DNA of 64,000 nucleotides from Caldithrix sp. (GTDB lineage Bacteria > Calditrichota > Calditrichia > Calditrichales > Calditrichaceae): assembly GCA_014730185.1 (NCBI GenBank), contig WJIP01000305.1:1-64000 (forward strand). Reading direction: 5' to 3'. Both the position numbers and the translations under genes were made by a program. Under the pieces are notes generated by a model. The model worked only from the letters and a program-made list of their open reading frames with translations. It searched no databases and was not told where the DNA came from. Numbering within the stretch: the first letter of the stretch is position 1; every line of letters starts with the position of its first letter. Of the stretch, positions 2,418-9,826 are shown piece after piece.

Positions 2418-3299
2418 ATGATAGATAAACAATTTAAATTAAAAATTGGCTTGGCAGAAATGCTTAAGGGCGGGGTTATCATGGATGTTACATCCCCGGA
2501 CCAGGCCAAAATTGCTGAAGATGCCGGAGCTGTGGCAGTGATGGCATTGGAGCGAATTCCTGCAGATATCCGGGCCGATGGAGGCGTAGCTCGTATGTCC
2601 AATCCCAAAATGATCAAAGAAATACAGGAGGCTGTATCGATCCCTGTAATGGCCAAATGTCGCATCGGTCATTTTGCTGAAGCTCAGGTTCTTGAATCGC
2701 TTGGGGTGGATTTTATCGATGAAAGCGAAGTTTTGACACCGGCAGATGAAACCAACCATATTTGGAAACATGACTTTAAAGTACCCTTTGTTTGCGGCTG
2801 CCGTGATTTGGGTGAAGCGCTGCGGCGTATTTCGGAAGGTGCGGCAATGATTCGCACCAAAGGTGAAGCTGGTTCGGGTAACATTGTGGAGGCGGTTAGA
2901 CATATGAGGACGGTTCAGAGAGCGATTAACCGTATTAAAAATTTACGGATGGATGAGCTGGTGCATTATGCCAAATCCATAGGTTCCTCCTTAGAGCTGG
3001 TCCGCTTCATTAAGGAAAATGGAAAGCTCCCTGTACCCAATTTTTCAGCCGGTGGAATTGCCACACCGGCGGATGCCGCGTTGATGATGCAGTTGGGCGC
3101 CGAAACCAATTTTGTTGGGTCTGGCATATTCAAATCCAGTGATCCGGCTGAGCGCGCTAAAGCCATTGTTCTGGCGACAACCCACTTTGACGATCCCGAA
3201 ATTGTTGCCCGGGCAAGTGCTGGTTTAAAAGATGCAATGCCCGGACTGGAAATGGCCTCAATACCTGAAGAAGAAATGTTGCATAAGCGGGGATGGTAA
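2418..3299 (+). CDS. pdxS: Pyridoxal 5'-phosphate synthase, synthase subunit PdxS
   Basis: Builds pyridoxal 5'-phosphate from ribose 5-phosphate, glyceraldehyde 3-phosphate and ammonia (DXP-independent route). The 293-residue length is normal for the family. Catalytic residues are visible: D23 in VIMDVTSP, K80 in VMAKCRIGH (first Schiff-base lysine) and K148 in [10 protein letters not shown] (second). The ATG is preceded by AGGAG. pdxT follows with no intergenic bases, as expected for the two subunits of one glutamine amidotransferase complex. Confidence 0.97.
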
Positions 3300-3875
3300 T
3301 TGGCAAAAAGAGTAGGTATACTAGCGCTTCAGGGAGATTTTACTAAACACGTGCAAAGCGTGGCCCGTTTGAACCATCAACCGGTTTTAATCCGTAAACC
3401 CGAAGAACTTAAGCAGTGTGATTATCTTATCCTCCCGGGGGGTGAATCCACTACATTTCTGCATCTGATTGAACAGCTGGATTTAAGGCAGCCCATTATA
3501 GAATTTAGCCGGGAAAAGCCCATTATGGGTACCTGTGCCGGTTTGATCACACTTTCAAAAGATGTGGCCGGTTTACCACATCCTTCACTGGGATTGATTG
3601 ACTTGCATACCGTTCGAAACGCGTATGGAAGACAAATAGATTCATTTGTGGGCGACGTCAGGTTATCCTTTGATGAACGTCGAAACATCTTTGAAGGTAT
3701 ATTCATCCGTGCACCCCGTATAAAAAGAATCGGCCAGGATGTTGAGCAAATCGGCTTTCACAATGATGATGTGGTTTTGGCCCATAATCAAACTATTTTG
3801 GTGGCATCTTTCCACCCTGAATTGACCGATGATACACGAATCCATCGGTATTTTCTGGATACAATGGGCAAATAA
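3300..3875 (+). CDS. pdxT: Pyridoxal 5'-phosphate synthase, glutaminase subunit PdxT
   Basis: Class I glutamine amidotransferase that supplies ammonia to PdxS. All family marks are present in 191 residues: LALQGDF near the N-terminus, LPGGEST at 45-51, nucleophile C79 in GTCAGL, and the H172/E174 pair in FHPEL. The start is TTG at 3300, directly after the pdxS stop; a GGGG-containing stretch at the end of pdxS can serve as ribosome binding site, so translation is probably coupled. Confidence 0.97.
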   Translation: MAKRVGILALQGDFTKHVQSVARLNHQPVLIRKPEELKQCDYLILPGGESTTFLHLIEQLDLRQPIIEFSREKPIMGTCAGLITLSKDVAGLPHPSLGLIDLHTVRNAYGRQIDSFVGDVRLSFDERRNIFEGIFIRAPRIKRIGQDVEQIGFHNDDVVLAHNQTILVASFHPELTDDTRIHRYFLDTMGK

Positions 3876-3994
3876 TTTAATATTGCTTATTTCATAACAA
3901 GTACCGGATGCGATAACGGGTCGCAAGAGAATCGAGAATGAAAAAGCGTGTGTATTACTGCATGAAAACTTTACCTCCGCCTCTTTATTCCTGC

Positions 3995-4024
3995 TTGCAT
4001 TACAAATCTTAAATTCGTAAGATT
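3995..4024 (+). promoter_or_regulatory. Possible promoter with overlapping inverted repeat upstream of cutA
   Basis: TTGCAT (3995-4000), 17-base spacer and TAAGAT (4018-4023). A perfect inverted repeat, AATCTTA-N6-TAAGATT (4005-4024), covers the -10 element, the usual geometry of a repressor operator. It lies 30 bases before the cutA start and would control the whole cutA-to-yqeB operon. The repressor is not identified. Confidence 0.4.
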
Positions 4025-4053
4025 ATCAAAACTTATAACTTAGGAGCTCCTTA

Positions 4054-4377
4054 ATGCCCGAAGAAGCTTTACTGGTTTATTGCACTGTACCCTCACAAAA
4101 AGTTGGCAAAGATATCGCTTCGGAGCTTGTTCGAAAAAAATTGGCCGCATGCTGTAACATAATCCCTGGTTTAATATCGATTTACGAGTGGAACAATAAT
4201 GTAGAGGAAGATGAGGAATTACTTTTATTGATAAAAACCACGGTAGAGGTTTATCCGAAATTGGAAAAAACCATTAGTGCGTTACACCCTTATGATGTAC
4301 CCGAAATTATTAGCACAAAAATACATTCAGGACTAGAATCCTATTTAAAATGGTTGAATGAAACAACAAAGGGTTAA
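4054..4377 (+). CDS. cutA: CutA1-family protein
   Basis: Small cytoplasmic protein of 107 residues in the CutA1 family, which forms very stable ferredoxin-like trimers and has been linked to divalent metal tolerance; its molecular role remains debated. Family marks: VYCTVPSQKVGKDIASELVRKKLAACCN near the N-terminus, the central YEWNN segment, and the HPYDVPEI motif near residue 80. The ATG follows a clear AGGAG. First gene of an operon whose members abut or overlap through 7439. Confidence 0.93.
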   Translation: MPEEALLVYCTVPSQKVGKDIASELVRKKLAACCNIIPGLISIYEWNNNVEEDEELLLLIKTTVEVYPKLEKTISALHPYDVPEIISTKIHSGLESYLKWLNETTKG

Positions 4378-4378
4378 T

Positions 4379-5275
4379 ATGGCAAGCAATAAACTGGATG
4401 AACTACTTAATGATAATCAATCCGGTTCGCACATCATTAATGAAATATCTTTAAAATTATTGTCCGAGCAGCTTGAAGAACTTCAACCTCAAACCGACGA
4501 TTTGGAAACGTTATACAAATCGGTGCAGGCAACTTCCAAGTCTATTCTAAAACAGCATCCCACTATGACATTAATTCGAAAAAGTCACAACTCCTTTTTT
4601 AATTATTTTAAGCGACTTTTGAAAACAGACAAAGAAGATGCGGATGTGTTGCAAAGTTTACAAGAAAAGATTGAACAGATCATTGATGAGCTCGCTCATA
4701 AACGGAAAAAAATTATTACAACAGGCTCACGCATTATTGCCAATTCCAATAAAGTAATGACCATAAGCAATAGCAATTTGGTTAAGGATATCATCAGCAA
4801 AGCTCAGTATCAAAAACGCCGGTTTGAGGTGTATAGCCTGATCAGTCAGCCTCCGGGTGAAGGTATACAACTGGCACGGGAATGCGATCAGAATGGTATC
4901 CGGACGACGGTAATTGCCGATTCACAAATGGGTGTTTTTATGGAAGAAATGAATCTAGTAATTATTGGCGCCGACAGGATATATGAAGATGGATTCATTA
5001 ATAAATCGGGCACTTTACCCCTTTGTCTCGTAGCAAACCACTATAATGTTCCTGTGTACTTGGTATCCGAAACGGACAAAATATTACTTGAAAGCCAGCG
5101 TAGTATAAAACAAAAACAACAAAACACCAGAGAAGTATTTATACCGGATAGCGGTAATATTCATGTGGATAATTTTTATTTTGAACGAATTCCTTTAAGT
5201 TGTATACATAAAGTTATTTGTGAAGATGGTGCTTTTGAAACGTTTGAATTTATTGATTGGTATTTAAAGGAGTAA
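4379..5275 (+). CDS. eIF2B alpha/beta/delta-family protein (initiation factor 2B-like)
   Basis: 298 residues. The C-terminal two-thirds carry the fold shared by eIF2B regulatory subunits, MtnA and ribose-1,5-bisphosphate isomerase: TTGSRIIANSN, then VIADSQMG, then GADRIYEDGFINKSGT and VPVYLVSE. The Asp of GAD is present, but the catalytic Cys that MtnA has in its T-x-C-N-A-G motif is replaced (TTGSR), so it is probably not an MtnA isomerase. The N-terminal ~110 residues are helical. I prefer the ATG at 4379, preceded by AAAGGG and just past the cutA stop; an in-frame ATG at 4358 lies inside cutA without a good site. The bacterial function of this branch is unknown to me. Confidence 0.75.
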   Translation: MASNKLDELLNDNQSGSHIINEISLKLLSEQLEELQPQTDDLETLYKSVQATSKSILKQHPTMTLIRKSHNSFFNYFKRLLKTDKEDADVLQSLQEKIEQIIDELAHKRKKIITTGSRIIANSNKVMTISNSNLVKDIISKAQYQKRRFEVYSLISQPPGEGIQLARECDQNGIRTTVIADSQMGVFMEEMNLVIIGADRIYEDGFINKSGTLPLCLVANHYNVPVYLVSETDKILLESQRSIKQKQQNTREVFIPDSGNIHVDNFYFERIPLSCIHKVICEDGAFETFEFIDWYLKE

Positions 5276-5279
5276 ACGA

Positions 5280-5486
5280 ATGCTTTCCGGAACCTTTGTT
5301 GCCGAAATAAAAGATAATAACACAATTCAATTACCTTCAGAGGTGGTTAAACAACTCCAATTGAGCGATGGCGAAAAAGTAGAAGTGCTGATAAAGCGTA
5401 TCAAATCTCGCCGGTTGGATATTCGCATATCAAAAAATCCTTTATTCAAACTTCTGGAAGTGACGGAGGATGATACTATTAAATGA
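5280..5486 (+). CDS. AbrB/SpoVT-type swapped-hairpin protein, probable antitoxin
   Basis: 68 residues. The first 45 fit the AbrB/MazE-type swapped-hairpin DNA-binding fold (NTIQLPSEVVKQLQLSDGEKVEVLI, compare IPkevReaLgLkpGdkVev). The rest could be the toxin-binding tail. It starts at ATG 5280 with AAAGGAG upstream, five bases after the eIF2B-like gene, and overlaps the PIN-domain gene by four bases (ATGA). This arrangement is typical of VapBC-type pairs. As antitoxin it would bind the PIN protein and possibly its own operator, but no promoter is visible inside the operon. Confidence 0.65.
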   Translation: MLSGTFVAEIKDNNTIQLPSEVVKQLQLSDGEKVEVLIKRIKSRRLDIRISKNPLFKLLEVTEDDTIK

Positions 5487-5914
5487 AAATAATGACCTGT
5501 TTCATCGATCAAACGGCCTGGCTGGCCATTATTGATACCGGGAATCCCAATCATCATAAGGCATATGAATATTTCGAAGAATTGTTATCCAAAAACACCA
5601 AACTGGTTACCAATAATATCGTTATTGATACCACGGTCAATGAACTTAAAAAAACGAAAGGGATGAAACAGGCCAATCAATTTTTAACCATAATCGATGA
5701 AAGTATTATGACCATAAATTTGCGGATGGATTGGGTTTCACGGCGGGTGCGTCGGAATGCTTTAAATCAGTTTTTCAAAAAAAATCATGAACTGGAACTT
5801 GACCATTTTTATATCTATGAATCCGTTAAACGCAAAAAGGTCGATGTGATTTTTTCATTTGATCATAACCTCAAAACGTTTGGTTTACCTCTTATGCCGC
5901 TGGAAACTTCTTGA
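5483..5914 (+). CDS. PIN-domain protein, VapC-like
   Basis: 143 residues resembling PIN-fold ribonucleases. The first acidic residue is in CFIDQTAW, the third near HELELDHF, and the fourth in FSFDHNLKTFGL, the usual end of the fold. The second acidic position, usually the Glu of a V-x-D-E-T stretch, reads VIDTTVNEL: Thr takes the Glu place, though neighbouring Asp and Glu could compensate. VapC toxins cleave tRNA or rRNA; whether this one is active is uncertain. It overlaps the AbrB-like gene by four bases and the next gene by four. Its place inside a housekeeping-like operon is unusual for a toxin. Confidence 0.65.
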   Translation: MKIMTCFIDQTAWLAIIDTGNPNHHKAYEYFEELLSKNTKLVTNNIVIDTTVNELKKTKGMKQANQFLTIIDESIMTINLRMDWVSRRVRRNALNQFFKKNHELELDHFYIYESVKRKKVDVIFSFDHNLKTFGLPLMPLETS

Positions 5915-6603
5915 ATATGCCATCAAAATTTTTCACATATTTCGATCTTAATCAGTTACATTTTCATGCCCACTTTGGAGATGGATCCCGTTTGGATATA
6001 ATGCGGTTTCTTGCCCGGCAGGCAGCAGTAAATCAACTTTCCGCTCTCATGGCTTTTCAGAAAGCACATCCCTACCCACTGGATGGCAATGTAATGATAT
6101 CCTCAGAGCCGGCAATCATTAAACACCGCATCAAAGAAGAAGGTCAAGGACCGTTTTATATAACACCAGCCATTAAAGAGCAAGTATTACAACCCTATTC
6201 ACGTAAGGCCGTTCAAACTTTGCTCGAACAGTTGACATCGAGCGATCATTTTTTCTGGACTTTAGATAACCTTAATGAATCGATCATCCGGTTTATAAAA
6301 AAGATGAAAGGCCAGTTGGTTTACTCGCTGTCATTTAAAAATCTGTCAGATTTATTCAAAAACATGGATTTGAATCATGCAGATTCCAGCACACTCAGCA
6401 CTATAATCAAGAAAAAATTATTTCCGGAATGGCATTTGCTCGAATCCCTTTCTGAAGCGCAAAAAAAATGTGTTATTACCGATGTGGATGTTATTTTTGA
6501 TGAAAATATCATTATACCATTTGCCCGGAGGTGTAAAGAGTTGACAAGCATGACCGTATATTTGGTATCATTTAATCAATCGAAGATCAAAGCGGTTAAA
6601 TAG
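5911..6603 (+). CDS. Uncharacterised protein, possibly a YqeC-like protein with degenerate P-loop
   Basis: 230 residues with no confident family. The N-terminal outline (YFDLNQLHFHAHFGDGSRLDIMRFLARQ) lines up by eye with the start of YqeC, an accessory protein of selenium-dependent molybdenum hydroxylases, where this stretch reads V-G-A-G-G-K-T-T-L and binds nucleotide. Here the Walker A Gly-Lys-Thr has become Ser-Arg-Leu, so nucleotide binding is doubtful. The end (KKCVITDVDVIFDENIIIPFARRCKEL) also resembles the YqeC tail. The next gene is YqeB-like, the usual YqeC partner, which supports the idea. Start is TTG 5911 overlapping the PIN gene, or ATG 5917. Confidence 0.4.
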   Translation: MNMPSKFFTYFDLNQLHFHAHFGDGSRLDIMRFLARQAAVNQLSALMAFQKAHPYPLDGNVMISSEPAIIKHRIKEEGQGPFYITPAIKEQVLQPYSRKAVQTLLEQLTSSDHFFWTLDNLNESIIRFIKKMKGQLVYSLSFKNLSDLFKNMDLNHADSSTLSTIIKKKLFPEWHLLESLSEAQKKCVITDVDVIFDENIIIPFARRCKELTSMTVYLVSFNQSKIKAVK

Positions 6604-6608
6604 GATTT

Positions 6609-7439
6609 ATGTCGCGTAAAATATTAATAGTAGGCAGTAGCGATCTGGAAAGCGTCATTGCCATGCGCTTCTTTAAAGCAGGTATTCTGGCTCTTCTCAT
6701 CGATCGTCATCCTCCGTATGATTTATCTCATCACCGTTCATTCAGTACAGCATTGCATTCCGGTAAACGAACATTACATGGAATGCTGGCCCGTGCTTTA
6801 AGCGATGTGGTTTTCCATGATGAACTTGATGTGCATGCTGAGGATGAGCACATTATCAACTATATACTGCAAAATCGTGAAATTCCTATTTTAACTATAG
6901 AACAGGGTGCAGGTTTAAACAAAGTAGGATTTGATGCTATTATAATCATAAATTTTGATAGCTATCAAAATTTAAAACCACTTTTGAAACGGGAGCTTCC
7001 CATTTTTATTCTTTCATCGGCTAAAGAATATGTTAAAAATTATACATATGCAATTTCTGACCGAAATGAAGATTATGGAGCGGTATTGTATCCCGAATAT
7101 GAGAACGCCGTCCGGATATCATCTCACACATCTCTGAAACACATAAATGAAATCAAAGCATCAAAGAGCGGTGTTATACATGCAACGGTAACTGCAGGTG
7201 CAAAGGTAAGCAAGGGAACGGAGATTTTGTCCATTGATCAATTCCCGGTCTATAGTCCCGTTGATGGTCAGATAAGCGGTATTATGAACAGTGGTATTTA
7301 TGTTGATGAATCGGTCGTCGTCGCGCAAATCCAATCCGGGGTCAAACAGAGTGTACAGTACATTCCTCCGGAAAAAAGAGCCATAGCCGGCGGTTTTCTT
7401 GAAGCTTTTCTGTACCATTTTAATTATATAGATCCGTAA
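6609..7439 (+). CDS. yqeB: YqeB/EF2563-family protein (molybdenum hydroxylase accessory)
   Basis: 276 residues. The N-terminus (ILIVGSSDLESVIAMRFFKAG, then RSFSTALHSGKRTLHGMLA) follows the YqeB/EF2563 pattern of a Rossmann-like G-x-G-D-L-A-T-G start and a V-S-F-x-E-A-V-y-x-G block, although several glycines and the R-R pair are altered. Residues about 185-245 form a biotinyl/lipoyl-like barrel (SGVIHATVTAGAKVSKGTEI, YSPVDGQISG). The end, EKRAIAGGFLEAFL, is the characteristic family tail. Members usually sit beside selenium-dependent molybdenum hydroxylases; no such enzyme is in this window. Last gene of the operon. Confidence 0.7.
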   Translation: MSRKILIVGSSDLESVIAMRFFKAGILALLIDRHPPYDLSHHRSFSTALHSGKRTLHGMLARALSDVVFHDELDVHAEDEHIINYILQNREIPILTIEQGAGLNKVGFDAIIIINFDSYQNLKPLLKRELPIFILSSAKEYVKNYTYAISDRNEDYGAVLYPEYENAVRISSHTSLKHINEIKASKSGVIHATVTAGAKVSKGTEILSIDQFPVYSPVDGQISGIMNSGIYVDESVVVAQIQSGVKQSVQYIPPEKRAIAGGFLEAFLYHFNYIDP

Positions 7440-7440
7440 G

Positions 7441-7454
7441 TTATTACGTAATAA
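7441..7454. promoter_or_regulatory. 14-bp perfect palindrome upstream of the AGCS symporter gene
   Basis: TTATTACGTAATAA immediately follows the yqeB-like stop codon and lies 46 bases before the symporter start. It could be an operator or a simple AT-rich palindrome; no promoter boxes align clearly with it. Confidence 0.3.
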
Positions 7455-7500
7455 AAGAACATTAAAGGAATGATGTCGGGGTAAAAGAAAGGTTTTTTAT

Positions 7501-8970
7501 ATGGAAGCTGTAAAAAATTTTATCCAAACAGTGAGCGGTACGGTATGGGGCTGGCCGGAGTTGATGCCATTGATGGTGGTAATATTACTGGGTACAGGTA
7601 TTTTTATTACGTTAAGATTAAGATTTATTCAGCTTTTTCGTCTAAAACACTCCTGGAATGTGATTCGTGGAAAATATGATAACCCTGAGGATGAGGGTGA
7701 CATAAACCATTTTCAGGCCTTAAGTGCTGCACTGTCGGCTACGGTTGGAATCGGTAATATAGCGGGGGTGGCCACAGCCATTTATTATGGCGGGCCGGGA
7801 GCCTTATTCTGGATGTGGTTAACGGCTATTTTTGGTATGGCCTTAAAATACGCGGAAGCTACACTGGCATTACACTACAGGCAAATACATACTGACGGTT
7901 CTGCCAGCGGAGGACCAATGTATTACATCGAAAAAGGCCTGGGAAAAAGCTGGAAACCTTTAGGAATGGCTTTTGCTACTCTTGCAGTCATTTCTTCTTT
8001 CGGTACCGGTAATTCCATTCAGGCTTTTACCGTTTCCGATCAGGTACTTAGTGAGTTTAACGGACTATTGAGTCCTGAACACTGGTTTGTGCAACAAATC
8101 AATTTCATGGGGATTCCGGTAGAACCAGTACGTATTTTCACCGGCCTGATTACCACGGTTCTTGTAGCCTTGGTAATTCTGGGTGGCATTAAACGAATAG
8201 GCCGGGTTGCCGCAAAGTTAGCTCCCGGAATGGCTATCATTTATGTTTTGGGTGCGTTATCCATTCTGGTTATGCATTGGCAGGAAGTAATTCCTACCTT
8301 TGGAAAAATCATCTCACAGGCTTTTTCGCCCAGAGCCGAATTGGTCGGATTTGCCGGCGGGGGATTTTTATTATTTCTGAATACAATGGTATGGGGTGTT
8401 AAACGGGGACTGTTCTCCAATGAAGCAGGACAGGGAAGTGCACCTATTGCACATGCAGCTGCTAAAACCAAAGAACCGGCTCGTGAAGGTGTTGTAGCAA
8501 TGATGGGACCTTTGGTGGACACACTTATTATCTGTACGTTAACAGGTCTGGCTATTGTATTGACCAACTCTCATGAAGTTATTGTAGAAGGTGATCGTTT
8601 GAATGGATCCCCGTTAACGGCCCTGGCATTTAAAACCGGTTTGATGCCCTTATTCCCTTGGGGCGATAAAATTATTACCATCGCTGTATTCCTGTTTGCT
8701 ATTTCCACGGCAATCAGTTGGTCGTATTACGGTGATCGCAGTGCGGAATATCTGATTGGCAACCGAGCCATTCGACCCTATAAAATTATTTATGTTATCG
8801 TGCATTTTATCGGAGCTATCGTTTCGCTGGAAATTGTATGGGGTTTTGGAGATATCGCATTGGGATTAATGGCCGTTCCCAATTTGATAGCTTTAATTTT
8901 GTTATCTCCTAAAGTTATTGAAATAACGAAAGATTATTTTTCGAGAAAACACGAGTATTACAAGCAGTGA
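7501..8970 (+). CDS. Alanine/glycine:cation symporter (AGCS family)
   Basis: Inner-membrane, sodium-coupled amino-acid carrier of 489 residues with about ten hydrophobic segments, normal for the AGCS/AlsT family. Diagnostic stretches include QALSAALSATVGIGNIAGVATAI, GGPGALFWMWLTAIFGMALKYAE, SGGPMYYIEKGLG, and GVKRGLFSNEAGQGSAPIAHAAA. The expected substrates are D/L-alanine or glycine. AAAGG lies before the ATG. No further amino-acid genes are adjacent. Confidence 0.93.
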   Translation: MEAVKNFIQTVSGTVWGWPELMPLMVVILLGTGIFITLRLRFIQLFRLKHSWNVIRGKYDNPEDEGDINHFQALSAALSATVGIGNIAGVATAIYYGGPGALFWMWLTAIFGMALKYAEATLALHYRQIHTDGSASGGPMYYIEKGLGKSWKPLGMAFATLAVISSFGTGNSIQAFTVSDQVLSEFNGLLSPEHWFVQQINFMGIPVEPVRIFTGLITTVLVALVILGGIKRIGRVAAKLAPGMAIIYVLGALSILVMHWQEVIPTFGKIISQAFSPRAELVGFAGGGFLLFLNTMVWGVKRGLFSNEAGQGSAPIAHAAAKTKEPAREGVVAMMGPLVDTLIICTLTGLAIVLTNSHEVIVEGDRLNGSPLTALAFKTGLMPLFPWGDKIITIAVFLFAISTAISWSYYGDRSAEYLIGNRAIRPYKIIYVIVHFIGAIVSLEIVWGFGDIALGLMAVPNLIALILLSPKVIEITKDYFSRKHEYYKQ

Positions 8971-8987
8971 TGAATGCCAAAGAAAAT

Positions 8988-9016
8988 TTGACAGAAAAAT
9001 ATTGAGCCTTTATATT
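8988..9016 (+). promoter_or_regulatory. Consensus sigma-70 promoter of tRNA-Lys
   Basis: TTGACA (8988-8993), 17-base spacer and TATATT (9011-9016), followed about 20 bases later by the tRNA. The -35 box matches the consensus exactly, as expected for a stable RNA gene. Confidence 0.8.
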
Positions 9017-9036
9017 AAAGGTTTGCATTAATAAGG

Positions 9037-9109
9037 GAGCCAGTAGCTCAGTTGGTAGAGCAGCGGCCTTTTAAGCCGTCGGTCGAGCGTTCGAGTCGCT
9101 CCTGGCTCA
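9037..9109 (+). tRNA. tRNA-Lys (anticodon TTT)
   Basis: The 73 bases fold into a full cloverleaf: acceptor GAGCCAG/CTGGCTC, D stem GCTC/GAGC, anticodon stem GCGGC/GCCGT with loop CTTTTAA, and T stem GAGCG/CGCTC with loop TTCGAGT. The anticodon TTT is at 9070-9072. The discriminator is A9109; the CCA end is not encoded. It is a single gene with its own promoter and terminator. There is no integrase or tRNA-end duplication nearby, so it shows no sign of use as an attachment site. Confidence 0.97.
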
Positions 9110-9116
9110 CACATTT

Positions 9117-9154
9117 AAAGCCTGTTATGTCAACACATAGCGGGCTTTTTTTTT
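9117..9154 (+). terminator. Rho-independent terminator of tRNA-Lys
   Basis: About 14 base pairs (AAAGCCTGTTATGT with ACATAGCGGGCTTT, including G-U pairs) around a four-base loop, followed by a run of nine T. Confidence 0.85.
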
Positions 9155-9193
9155 GTAATAAGACTTATGCATAAATTCGCGAACGGTTACAAT

Positions 9194-9826
9194 TTAATGG
9201 TATCCTGGAATATTTAAACCCAAAATAATATCGCGCTCAGCAATCAATAAATGATCCTCTTGGTTTAACGACACCATTCCCGATCCACCACGATTATCCA
9301 GGGCAGGCAGGGAAAACTCCCGATCTTGATTATCCTGTTTGAAGCGAAAGGCTTCAATGTAGTAATACCGGCCGTCTGGTTCCAGAATGGTTGCATGGAT
9401 GTGTGGAAACTGGTTTCCGTAAGCACCCGGTTCCTGAGTAAAAAATGTGTATTGGCCAGTATGGTCGGTTTTAATCCATCCTCTCAATTTACCATGTCGG
9501 TTTGCCCATCCATGGGCATTCTCGGGAGGTGCGTATTGGCCTTCCTGGTTAGTATGATAAACATATAATACTACATTATCAGCCGGTGTTTTTCCATCCG
9601 ATTGAAAAATAGTTCCGGTAATTTTGAGTTTACGGTTCGCGGTTGAAAATTCAGGTAAGGTATCGATCGCATTCAAAACGTTAAAATTCTCAAACTCAAA
9701 AATAGCCTCACATCCCTCACAGGGACCGCCTATCAGTTCAGCATTTTTGATTTGCGGCGGATTACTTTGTCCCCGGCATGCGACAACCGAAATCAACAAT
9801 ACACAGGCCATGAATATAGATTTCAT
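9194..9826 (-). CDS. Intradiol ring-cleavage dioxygenase-like lipoprotein
   Basis: 210 residues with a lipoprotein signal ending at C17 (SVVAC). The body matches the C-terminal domain of intradiol dioxygenases (catechol or protocatechuate 3,4-dioxygenases). All four non-haem Fe(III) ligands are visible: Y98 (EGQY), Y136 (EPGAY), H142 and H144 (PHIH). Secreted, single-domain members of this family occur in many bacteria without known aromatic pathways; the substrate here is unknown and no other aromatic genes are close. GGAGG precedes the start. Monocistronic, facing the tRNA gene. Confidence 0.85.
   Translation of the reverse strand: MKSIFMACVLLISVVACRGQSNPPQIKNAELIGGPCEGCEAIFEFENFNVLNAIDTLPEFSTANRKLKITGTIFQSDGKTPADNVVLYVYHTNQEGQYAPPENAHGWANRHGKLRGWIKTDHTGQYTFFTQEPGAYGNQFPHIHATILEPDGRYYYIEAFRFKQDNQDREFSLPALDNRGGSGMVSLNQEDHLLIAERDIILGLNIPGYH

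Follow-up and report, generated by a model that had tools for sequence, protein, structure and literature searches.

What would bring a CutA1 protein, a relative of the translation initiation factor eIF2B, an antitoxin-like and a PIN-domain protein, and distant kin of YqeC and YqeB together in one string of genes? This arrangement occupies positions 4054-7439 of a 64,000-nucleotide stretch of Caldithrix sp. DNA (assembly GCA_014730185.1, contig WJIP01000305.1; here denoted the window). The window is part of contig C255 of genome G000, an assembly of 4.10 Mb in 398 contigs that is 96.5% complete. We compared the locus among 40 genomes of a Calditrichota-like phylum, whose families and genera are denoted f1-f6 and g1-g28. 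The cluster is real, conserved and unusual in this phylum, and literature searches of open-licence PMC papers turned up no account of one like it. Judged by sequence, three of the protein families are without residues on which catalysis or nucleotide binding depends in their relatives. As a tentative answer we propose that the cluster may be not a set of enzymes but a metabolite-responsive regulator, in which a former isomerase is combined with a pair derived from VapBC and another of YqeC/YqeB type.

The six open reading frames (ORFs) are co-directional on the plus strand: cutA (4054-4377), an IF2B-like gene (4379-5275), a small AbrB/MazE-like gene (5280-5486), a PIN-domain gene (5483-5914), gene 5 (5917-6603) and gene 6 (6609-7439). 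The initial ORF bounds placed the IF2B-like gene at 4358-5275 and gene 5 at 5911-6603, with junctions from -20 to +5 bases. Comparison with homologues favours the later ATG starts at 4379 and 5917, with the ATG at 4358 and a possible TTG at 5911 as the alternatives. With the later starts the junctions are +1, +4, -4, +2 and +5 bases, close to the first-pass annotation, which had described genes that abut or overlap by 1-4 bases, but spread from -4 to +5; tight packing is also found in relatives. The gene names of that annotation hold to differing degrees. CutA (107 amino acids; PF03091, E 2.4e-36, 123.9 bits vs a cut-off of 22.4), IF-2B (Pfam E 1.2e-48) and PIN (143 amino acids; PF01850, 24.1 bits vs 23.6) pass their Pfam cut-offs, the last narrowly; the AbrB/MazE fold of the 68-residue protein in the antitoxin position is a sub-threshold call (MazE, 17.5 bits vs 24.7), and YqeC and YqeB stand as distant homology only.

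Across the phylum the cluster is made of two modules, cutA with the IF2B-like gene and AbrB-PIN with the YqeC-like and YqeB-like genes. The cutA gene adjoins the IF2B-like gene at 29 of 37 IF2B loci; its product shares with CutA1 proteins a full Pfam match and differs in this usual partnership. AbrB is the next gene upstream of PIN in 31/31 loci that have both, and AbrB-PIN directly follows the IF2B-like gene in 22 genomes (14/15 in f1, 6/6 in f2 and 2/3, G022 and G026, in f4). The block keeps the same order in three families, and its AbrB-PIN-(YqeC)-YqeB part occurs in further families as well. Gene 6 is present in 31 of the 40 genomes, PIN in 32 (E ≤1e-8) and gene 5 in 21, including one contig-start fragment. 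IF2B matches at 1e-10 occur in 39 genomes, a count that includes shorter matches in separate ORFs of ~350 amino acids, taken to be MtnA-like as judged on length alone; the residue and neighbour counts given here refer to 37 IF2B-like proteins collected from the loci read. A contig scan with the window IF2B-like protein as sole query returned one relative, on a contig that appears to be the same as contig C9 of G007.

PIN accompanies gene 6 in 28 of the 31 genomes that carry the latter, the exceptions being G009 and two genomes (G033 and G039) whose contig begins at gene 6. Over all 40 genomes the two genes co-occur (28 both, 3 gene 6 only, 4 PIN only, 5 neither; p 0.008), but among the 23 most complete genomes the association is lost (19, 1, 3 and 0; p 1.0) and it therefore rests partly on incomplete genomes. 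Most loci were fetched via gene 6, IF2B or PIN, which biases neighbour counts towards these genes. Recurrence is nevertheless seen for genes that played no part in the fetching (cutA in 29 genomes, AbrB in 31, gene 5 in 20), compared with 13-14 loci for pdxS/pdxT and at most 11 for the other flanking families, a broad mixed group of 49 proteins excluded. The cutA of G003 (locus L034), at 47 amino acids, falls under the ORF filter and is absent from the neighbour counts; in G025 the ORF upstream of IF2B has 122 amino acids. The truncation of the G003 cutA and an in-frame TAA in the PIN gene of G014 (L045) may be assembly errors or decay. In G032 (L091:2-3196) a contig-start fragment of gene 5 is followed by a 906-amino-acid ORF in the place of gene 6, methyltransferase-like (DNA) by eye.

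The IF2B-like protein belongs to the eIF2B alpha/ribose-1,5-bisphosphate isomerase family and is predicted to be non-catalytic. Its profile matches in the PDB are 1vb5 (8.9e-32), 3a11 and 5yfs, and positions of the isomerase PH0208 were mapped by eye from the profile alignment. The isomerase cysteine, Cys135, is serine in 37/37 proteins, so that none has the pair Cys135 and Asp204 expected of a ribose-1,5-bisphosphate isomerase; the Asp204 position itself holds Asp in 34, Glu in 2 and Asn in 1. Shared with PH0208 are the sequence family and the sugar/5-phosphate pocket, with S137, D204, N214, K215 and K240 kept in 33, 34, 33, 33 and 32 of 37. Besides the cysteine, the differences lie in the 1-phosphate Arg65, kept in 0 of 35 readable proteins (those of G032 and G037, at contig starts, are without this position), and in the AMP site, with Arg190 in none and Lys194 in 2/37. 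As passages of PMC5789824 describe, the C135S form of PH0208 no longer catalyses yet still binds substrate, and eIF2B alpha keeps the sugar/5-phosphate residues, is without the 1-phosphate ones and has Ala or Gly in place of the cysteine. The pattern of eIF2B alpha (5-phosphate residues kept, Arg65 lost, cysteine replaced) is resembled here, four genomes of genus g5 excepted, and this pattern is not specific to eIF2B alpha. An excerpt of PMC8187479 reports that the ancestral site of eIF2B alpha binds sugar phosphates. These residues provide good evidence for a predicted binding pocket, and they favour a probable sugar-phosphate-binding protein, one of the descriptions offered at first, over an isomerase.

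The AbrB-PIN pair resembles VapBC modules, and VapC20 in particular, in its antitoxin-then-toxin order, its short spacing and the PIN sequence profile (A3), whose only PDB match is VapC20 (5wzf, E 2.5e-6). It differs from them in an acidic site that is incomplete in 30/30 readable proteins and in a fixed genomic position in f1, f2 and f4. VapC-type PIN domains have four conserved acidic residues, according to the abstract of PMC6118392. The window protein has D9, T50, H108 and D127 at these positions, and the full D-E-D-D set was found in 0 of the 30 PIN proteins (out of 32) readable at all four, G014 with its in-frame stop and G030 at a contig end being left out. All readable proteins have Asp9. 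At the third position most proteins of f1, f2 and f4 have a His, which might still hold a metal, and in f3, f5 and f6 the third-place acid is kept (Asp; Glu in G031) and the fourth lost. The suggestion that this gene encodes a possible RNase is accordingly doubtful.

Gene 5 is a distant YqeC relative. The window protein itself gave no match to Pfam or NCBIfam, including PF19842 and TIGR03172. Among 18 homologues, however, PF19842 matches 6 (best 2.8e-7) and TIGR03172 matches 5 (best 1.1e-5). An 18-row profile (A1) aligned by hhalign with E. coli YqeC over 212 columns (E 2.3e-6, probability 89), compared with E 0.28 for a guanylate kinase control. The YqeC P-loop is recognisable in only 1 of 20 gene 5 proteins and is lost in the window protein. 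The single intact copy, in G022, lies outside the A1 profile and scores best among the relatives, with 47 bits for TIGR03172 vs a cut-off of 73.05. The AlphaFold2 (AF2) model of the window protein (predicted local distance difference test, pLDDT, 92) has an SRP-family GTPase-like fold (Z 12.0, 170 residues, root-mean-square deviation (rmsd) 3.5). A match to TIGR03172 elsewhere in G000 proved to be guanylate kinase. A defence system was also considered and rejected; the only weak match was between gene 5 and Csn2 (E 0.0014), judged a nucleotide-fold resemblance, and there was no other defence match.

Gene 6, in turn, is a distant YqeB relative. TIGR03309 matches 26/26 of its homologues, the window protein scoring 61.2 bits vs a cut-off of 220, and hhalign aligned it with the C-terminal half of E. 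coli YqeB at E 8.3e-31. Its AF2 model (pLDDT 91) combines a Rossmann-like N-terminus with a biotinyl/lipoyl-like domain at about residues 178-242, which superimposes over 65 residues on a biotin carboxyl carrier domain, with Z 11.5 and rmsd 0.9; no obvious biotinyl lysine motif was seen by eye in this domain (alignment A2). The model also matches the XdhC-like structure 3on5 (Z 10.1 over 132 residues), and Foldseek returned partial matches only, the top one being cyanophycin dipeptide hydrolase CphZ (E 1.4e-4, template modelling (TM) score 0.28).

Within f1 the mean identity is 47.5% for cutA, 44.7% for IF2B, 55.6% for AbrB, 52.7% for PIN, 27.8% for gene 5 and 35.9% for gene 6, and 55.2% for the symporter gene agcS downstream of the cluster. 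In 12 genomes, with shared ancestry not removed, the distances of gene 5 and gene 6 gave the highest correlation of ten gene pairs (r 0.83).

The genes yqeB and yqeC are accessory genes of selenium-dependent molybdenum hydroxylases, and the same two families stand side by side here in a genome with selD. The present genes differ in lying behind IF2B-AbrB-PIN and in scoring far below the cut-offs. YqeB, YqeC or MocA/YgfJ exceeded their curated cut-offs in 0/40 genomes, although the E. coli YqeB and YqeC controls pass; one MocA-like protein fell just short (186.2 vs 186.45). Text from PMC2276186 describes a sharp fall-off from YqeB homologues to lower scorers, which are largely in species without selD. 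SelD is over its cut-off in 38/40 genomes, and a match to MoCoBD_1 was found in 33/40; G000 has three such matches and SelD over cut-off. Gene 6 is untied to these hydroxylases (25 genomes with both gene 6 and MoCoBD_1, 6 with gene 6 only, 8 with MoCoBD_1 only, 1 with neither; p 1.0), and genus g12 (G015, G017, G018 and G020; 85-96% complete) keeps gene 6 with no MoCoBD_1 match. For gene 5, where the corresponding counts are 20, 1, 13 and 6, the association is weak (Fisher p 0.04, uncorrected for phylogeny). G000 has two SelD genes over cut-off, on contigs C248 and C224. One occupies a 738-amino-acid open frame, and the other contains a TGA in frame that may encode selenocysteine; both SelD types recur in relatives. 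A MocA-like gene adjoins SelD in G021 (C105) and G023 (C43), a hint of selenium-linked molybdenum enzymes in f3.

The most economical positive reading of these data is a sensor-regulator assembled from retired enzymes, with the IF2B-like protein as its sugar-phosphate binder. The protein families, the linkage and the residue losses are direct observations, from which we infer the ligand, the complex and the output of such a module as follows. Judged from its residues, the IF2B-like protein would use the ancestral pocket to bind, with no turnover, either a sugar phosphate (5- or 6-) or a nucleotide through its ribose phosphate, as in eIF2B alpha. Family membership suggests that AbrB and PIN would form a VapBC-type complex on DNA or RNA, its nuclease activity reduced, changed or lost. 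The YqeC-like and YqeB-like proteins, which evolve faster than the rest, may serve as a partner or carrier and may have adapted to targets that differ between lineages. It is solely the persistent linkage of the genes that points to cross-talk among the three pairs. An unlikely, more specific form of this proposal is that an eIF2B alpha-like protein, fixed by nature in the Cys-to-Ser state that traps substrate, measures a sugar phosphate and signals to a VapBC pair no longer in its old role and to a YqeC/YqeB unit that is a pseudo-NTPase. Bacteria would then have a counterpart, of independent origin, to the sensing of sugar phosphates by eIF2B. Neither metal or nucleotide stress nor fixed stoichiometry, both raised by the first-pass annotation, found support.

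Several observations weigh against the sensor-regulator. In f3, f5 and f6 cutA-IF2B and AbrB-PIN are at separate loci and joining is therefore not obligatory; on the question of whether relatives have these genes scattered, the order is thus kept for most of the cluster but not for cutA-IF2B in these families. G009 is without AbrB, PIN and gene 5, and in ten genomes (the six of f2 together with G005, G009, G028 and G038) gene 6 has no gene 5 next to it, G033 and G039 in addition beginning at gene 6 on a contig end. The pocket is mostly changed in genus g5 (G004, G012, G013 and G014: S to D, N to H, K to R, and K to T, V or S), with D204 replaced by Glu as well in G004 and G012; a dead pocket would account for this as well as a sensor would. 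In 9/30 PIN proteins the site is D-E-H-D and could still be catalytic, and the PIN-gene 6 distances gave the lowest of the ten correlations (r 0.42).

The sensor-regulator has two close and serious rivals, a diverged locus for selenium/molybdenum cofactor maturation and a gene order that has simply persisted. According to the former, the YqeC-like and YqeB-like proteins still mature molybdenum hydroxylases, and AbrB-PIN and the IF2B-like protein serve to control the operon or to keep it stable. The homology of gene 5 to YqeC and of gene 6 to YqeB, the resemblance of gene 6 to XdhC-like 3on5, the wide occurrence of SelD and of MoCoBD_1, in the window's genome too, and the MocA-like gene beside SelD in G021 and G023 are all consistent with this, as is the presence of gene 5 in 20/33 genomes with MoCoBD_1 vs 1/7 without. 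The missing over-cut-off YqeB, YqeC and MocA/YgfJ, the lost P-loop of gene 5, genus g12 and the eight genomes with the reverse pattern argue otherwise; these counts weigh, though not decisively, against a hydroxylase-maturation role, and we regard this explanation as doubtful. We are equally hesitant about a cluster with no joint function, in which genes of separate roles keep their order through slow rearrangement or a well-placed shared promoter. In favour of this explanation, the gene content of the 3' end drifts: gene 5 is lost in f2, G005, G009, G028 and G038, G022 and G032 carry it (as a fragment in G032) without gene 6, and G026 and G027 retain AbrB-PIN without genes 5 and 6. The cutA-IF2B pair has other neighbours, CdsA-like and phytoene-synthase-like, in f3, f5 and f6, and the neighbour counts are biased by the way in which loci were fetched. 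Set against this is the recurrence of cutA, AbrB and gene 5, none of them used for fetching, beyond that of pdxS/pdxT and the other flanks.

An active VapBC-type pair, cleaving rRNA or tRNA like VapC20 and fixed in a house-keeping operon with its neighbours as passengers or triggers, seems to us rather unlikely. AbrB-PIN is a common toxin-antitoxin pairing, as stated in portions of PMC2701414, and the gene order, spacing, PIN fold and sole match to VapC20 would all suit it; the frequent His at the third position in f1, f2 and f4, which might hold a metal, and the D-E-H-D proteins leave room for catalysis. No PIN protein, however, has the full four-acid set, the window's own being D, T, H, D. 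Toxin-antitoxin modules are typically mobile. This pair, in contrast, is single-copy in the window's genome (PIN at E 1e-8) and occupies the same genomic position in different families.

As for the expression of the cluster, the first-pass annotation had placed a shared promoter upstream of cutA with an inverted repeat over its -10 box. The repeat exists, a perfect AATCTTA-N6-TAAGATT (7+7 arms, spacer 6) at 4005-4024, but no promoter stands out: no sigma70-like site scored at least 9/12 upstream of cutA, and the total of such sites in 3200-9200 is 19 vs a shuffle mean of 19.5. An equally good repeat arose in 188/1000 simulated sequences of like composition, and upstream of cutA at 28 other loci the best match still had at least 3/14 arm mismatches. 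The repeat is probably chance, and a promoter with operator at this site was rejected. A search for riboswitches and other RNAs in 3000-9300 gave a tRNA as its sole match, tRNA-Lys (TTT) at 9037-9110, with a strong hairpin that resembles a terminator just after it, at 9117-9148.

The tRNA lies downstream of an AgcS sodium:alanine symporter gene (7501-8970, plus strand; Pfam E 2.9e-133), which is not clearly part of the module and follows gene 6 in 17 of 31 gene 6 loci. Between gene 6 and agcS, at 7441-7454, is a perfect 14-base palindrome, TTATTACGTAATAA. The window AgcS shares 78-85% identity with its counterparts in G002, G006 and G011 and 46-50% with 13 others, and the adjacent gene 6 is only 27-29% identical in the same three genomes, a contrast that may reflect either gene replacement or an extreme difference in rate. 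In f3, f5 and f6 (L072, L073, L074, L076, L081) a CTP_transf_1 (CdsA-like) gene often follows cutA-IF2B directly or nearby, and in f6 two copies of an SQS_PSY-related (phytoene-synthase-like) group do so; the family scans behind these labels covered two CdsA-like proteins and a single protein from the SQS_PSY group.

If the sensor-regulator proposal is true, a regulator present throughout much of a phylum would have arisen from metabolic enzymes and a toxin-antitoxin pair, and the cluster would offer a simple bacterial system for testing why eIF2B descends from a sugar-phosphate enzyme. The proposal also bears on YqeB and YqeC, since relatives that persist in the absence of molybdenum hydroxylases hint at a more general role for the YqeB/YqeC pair.

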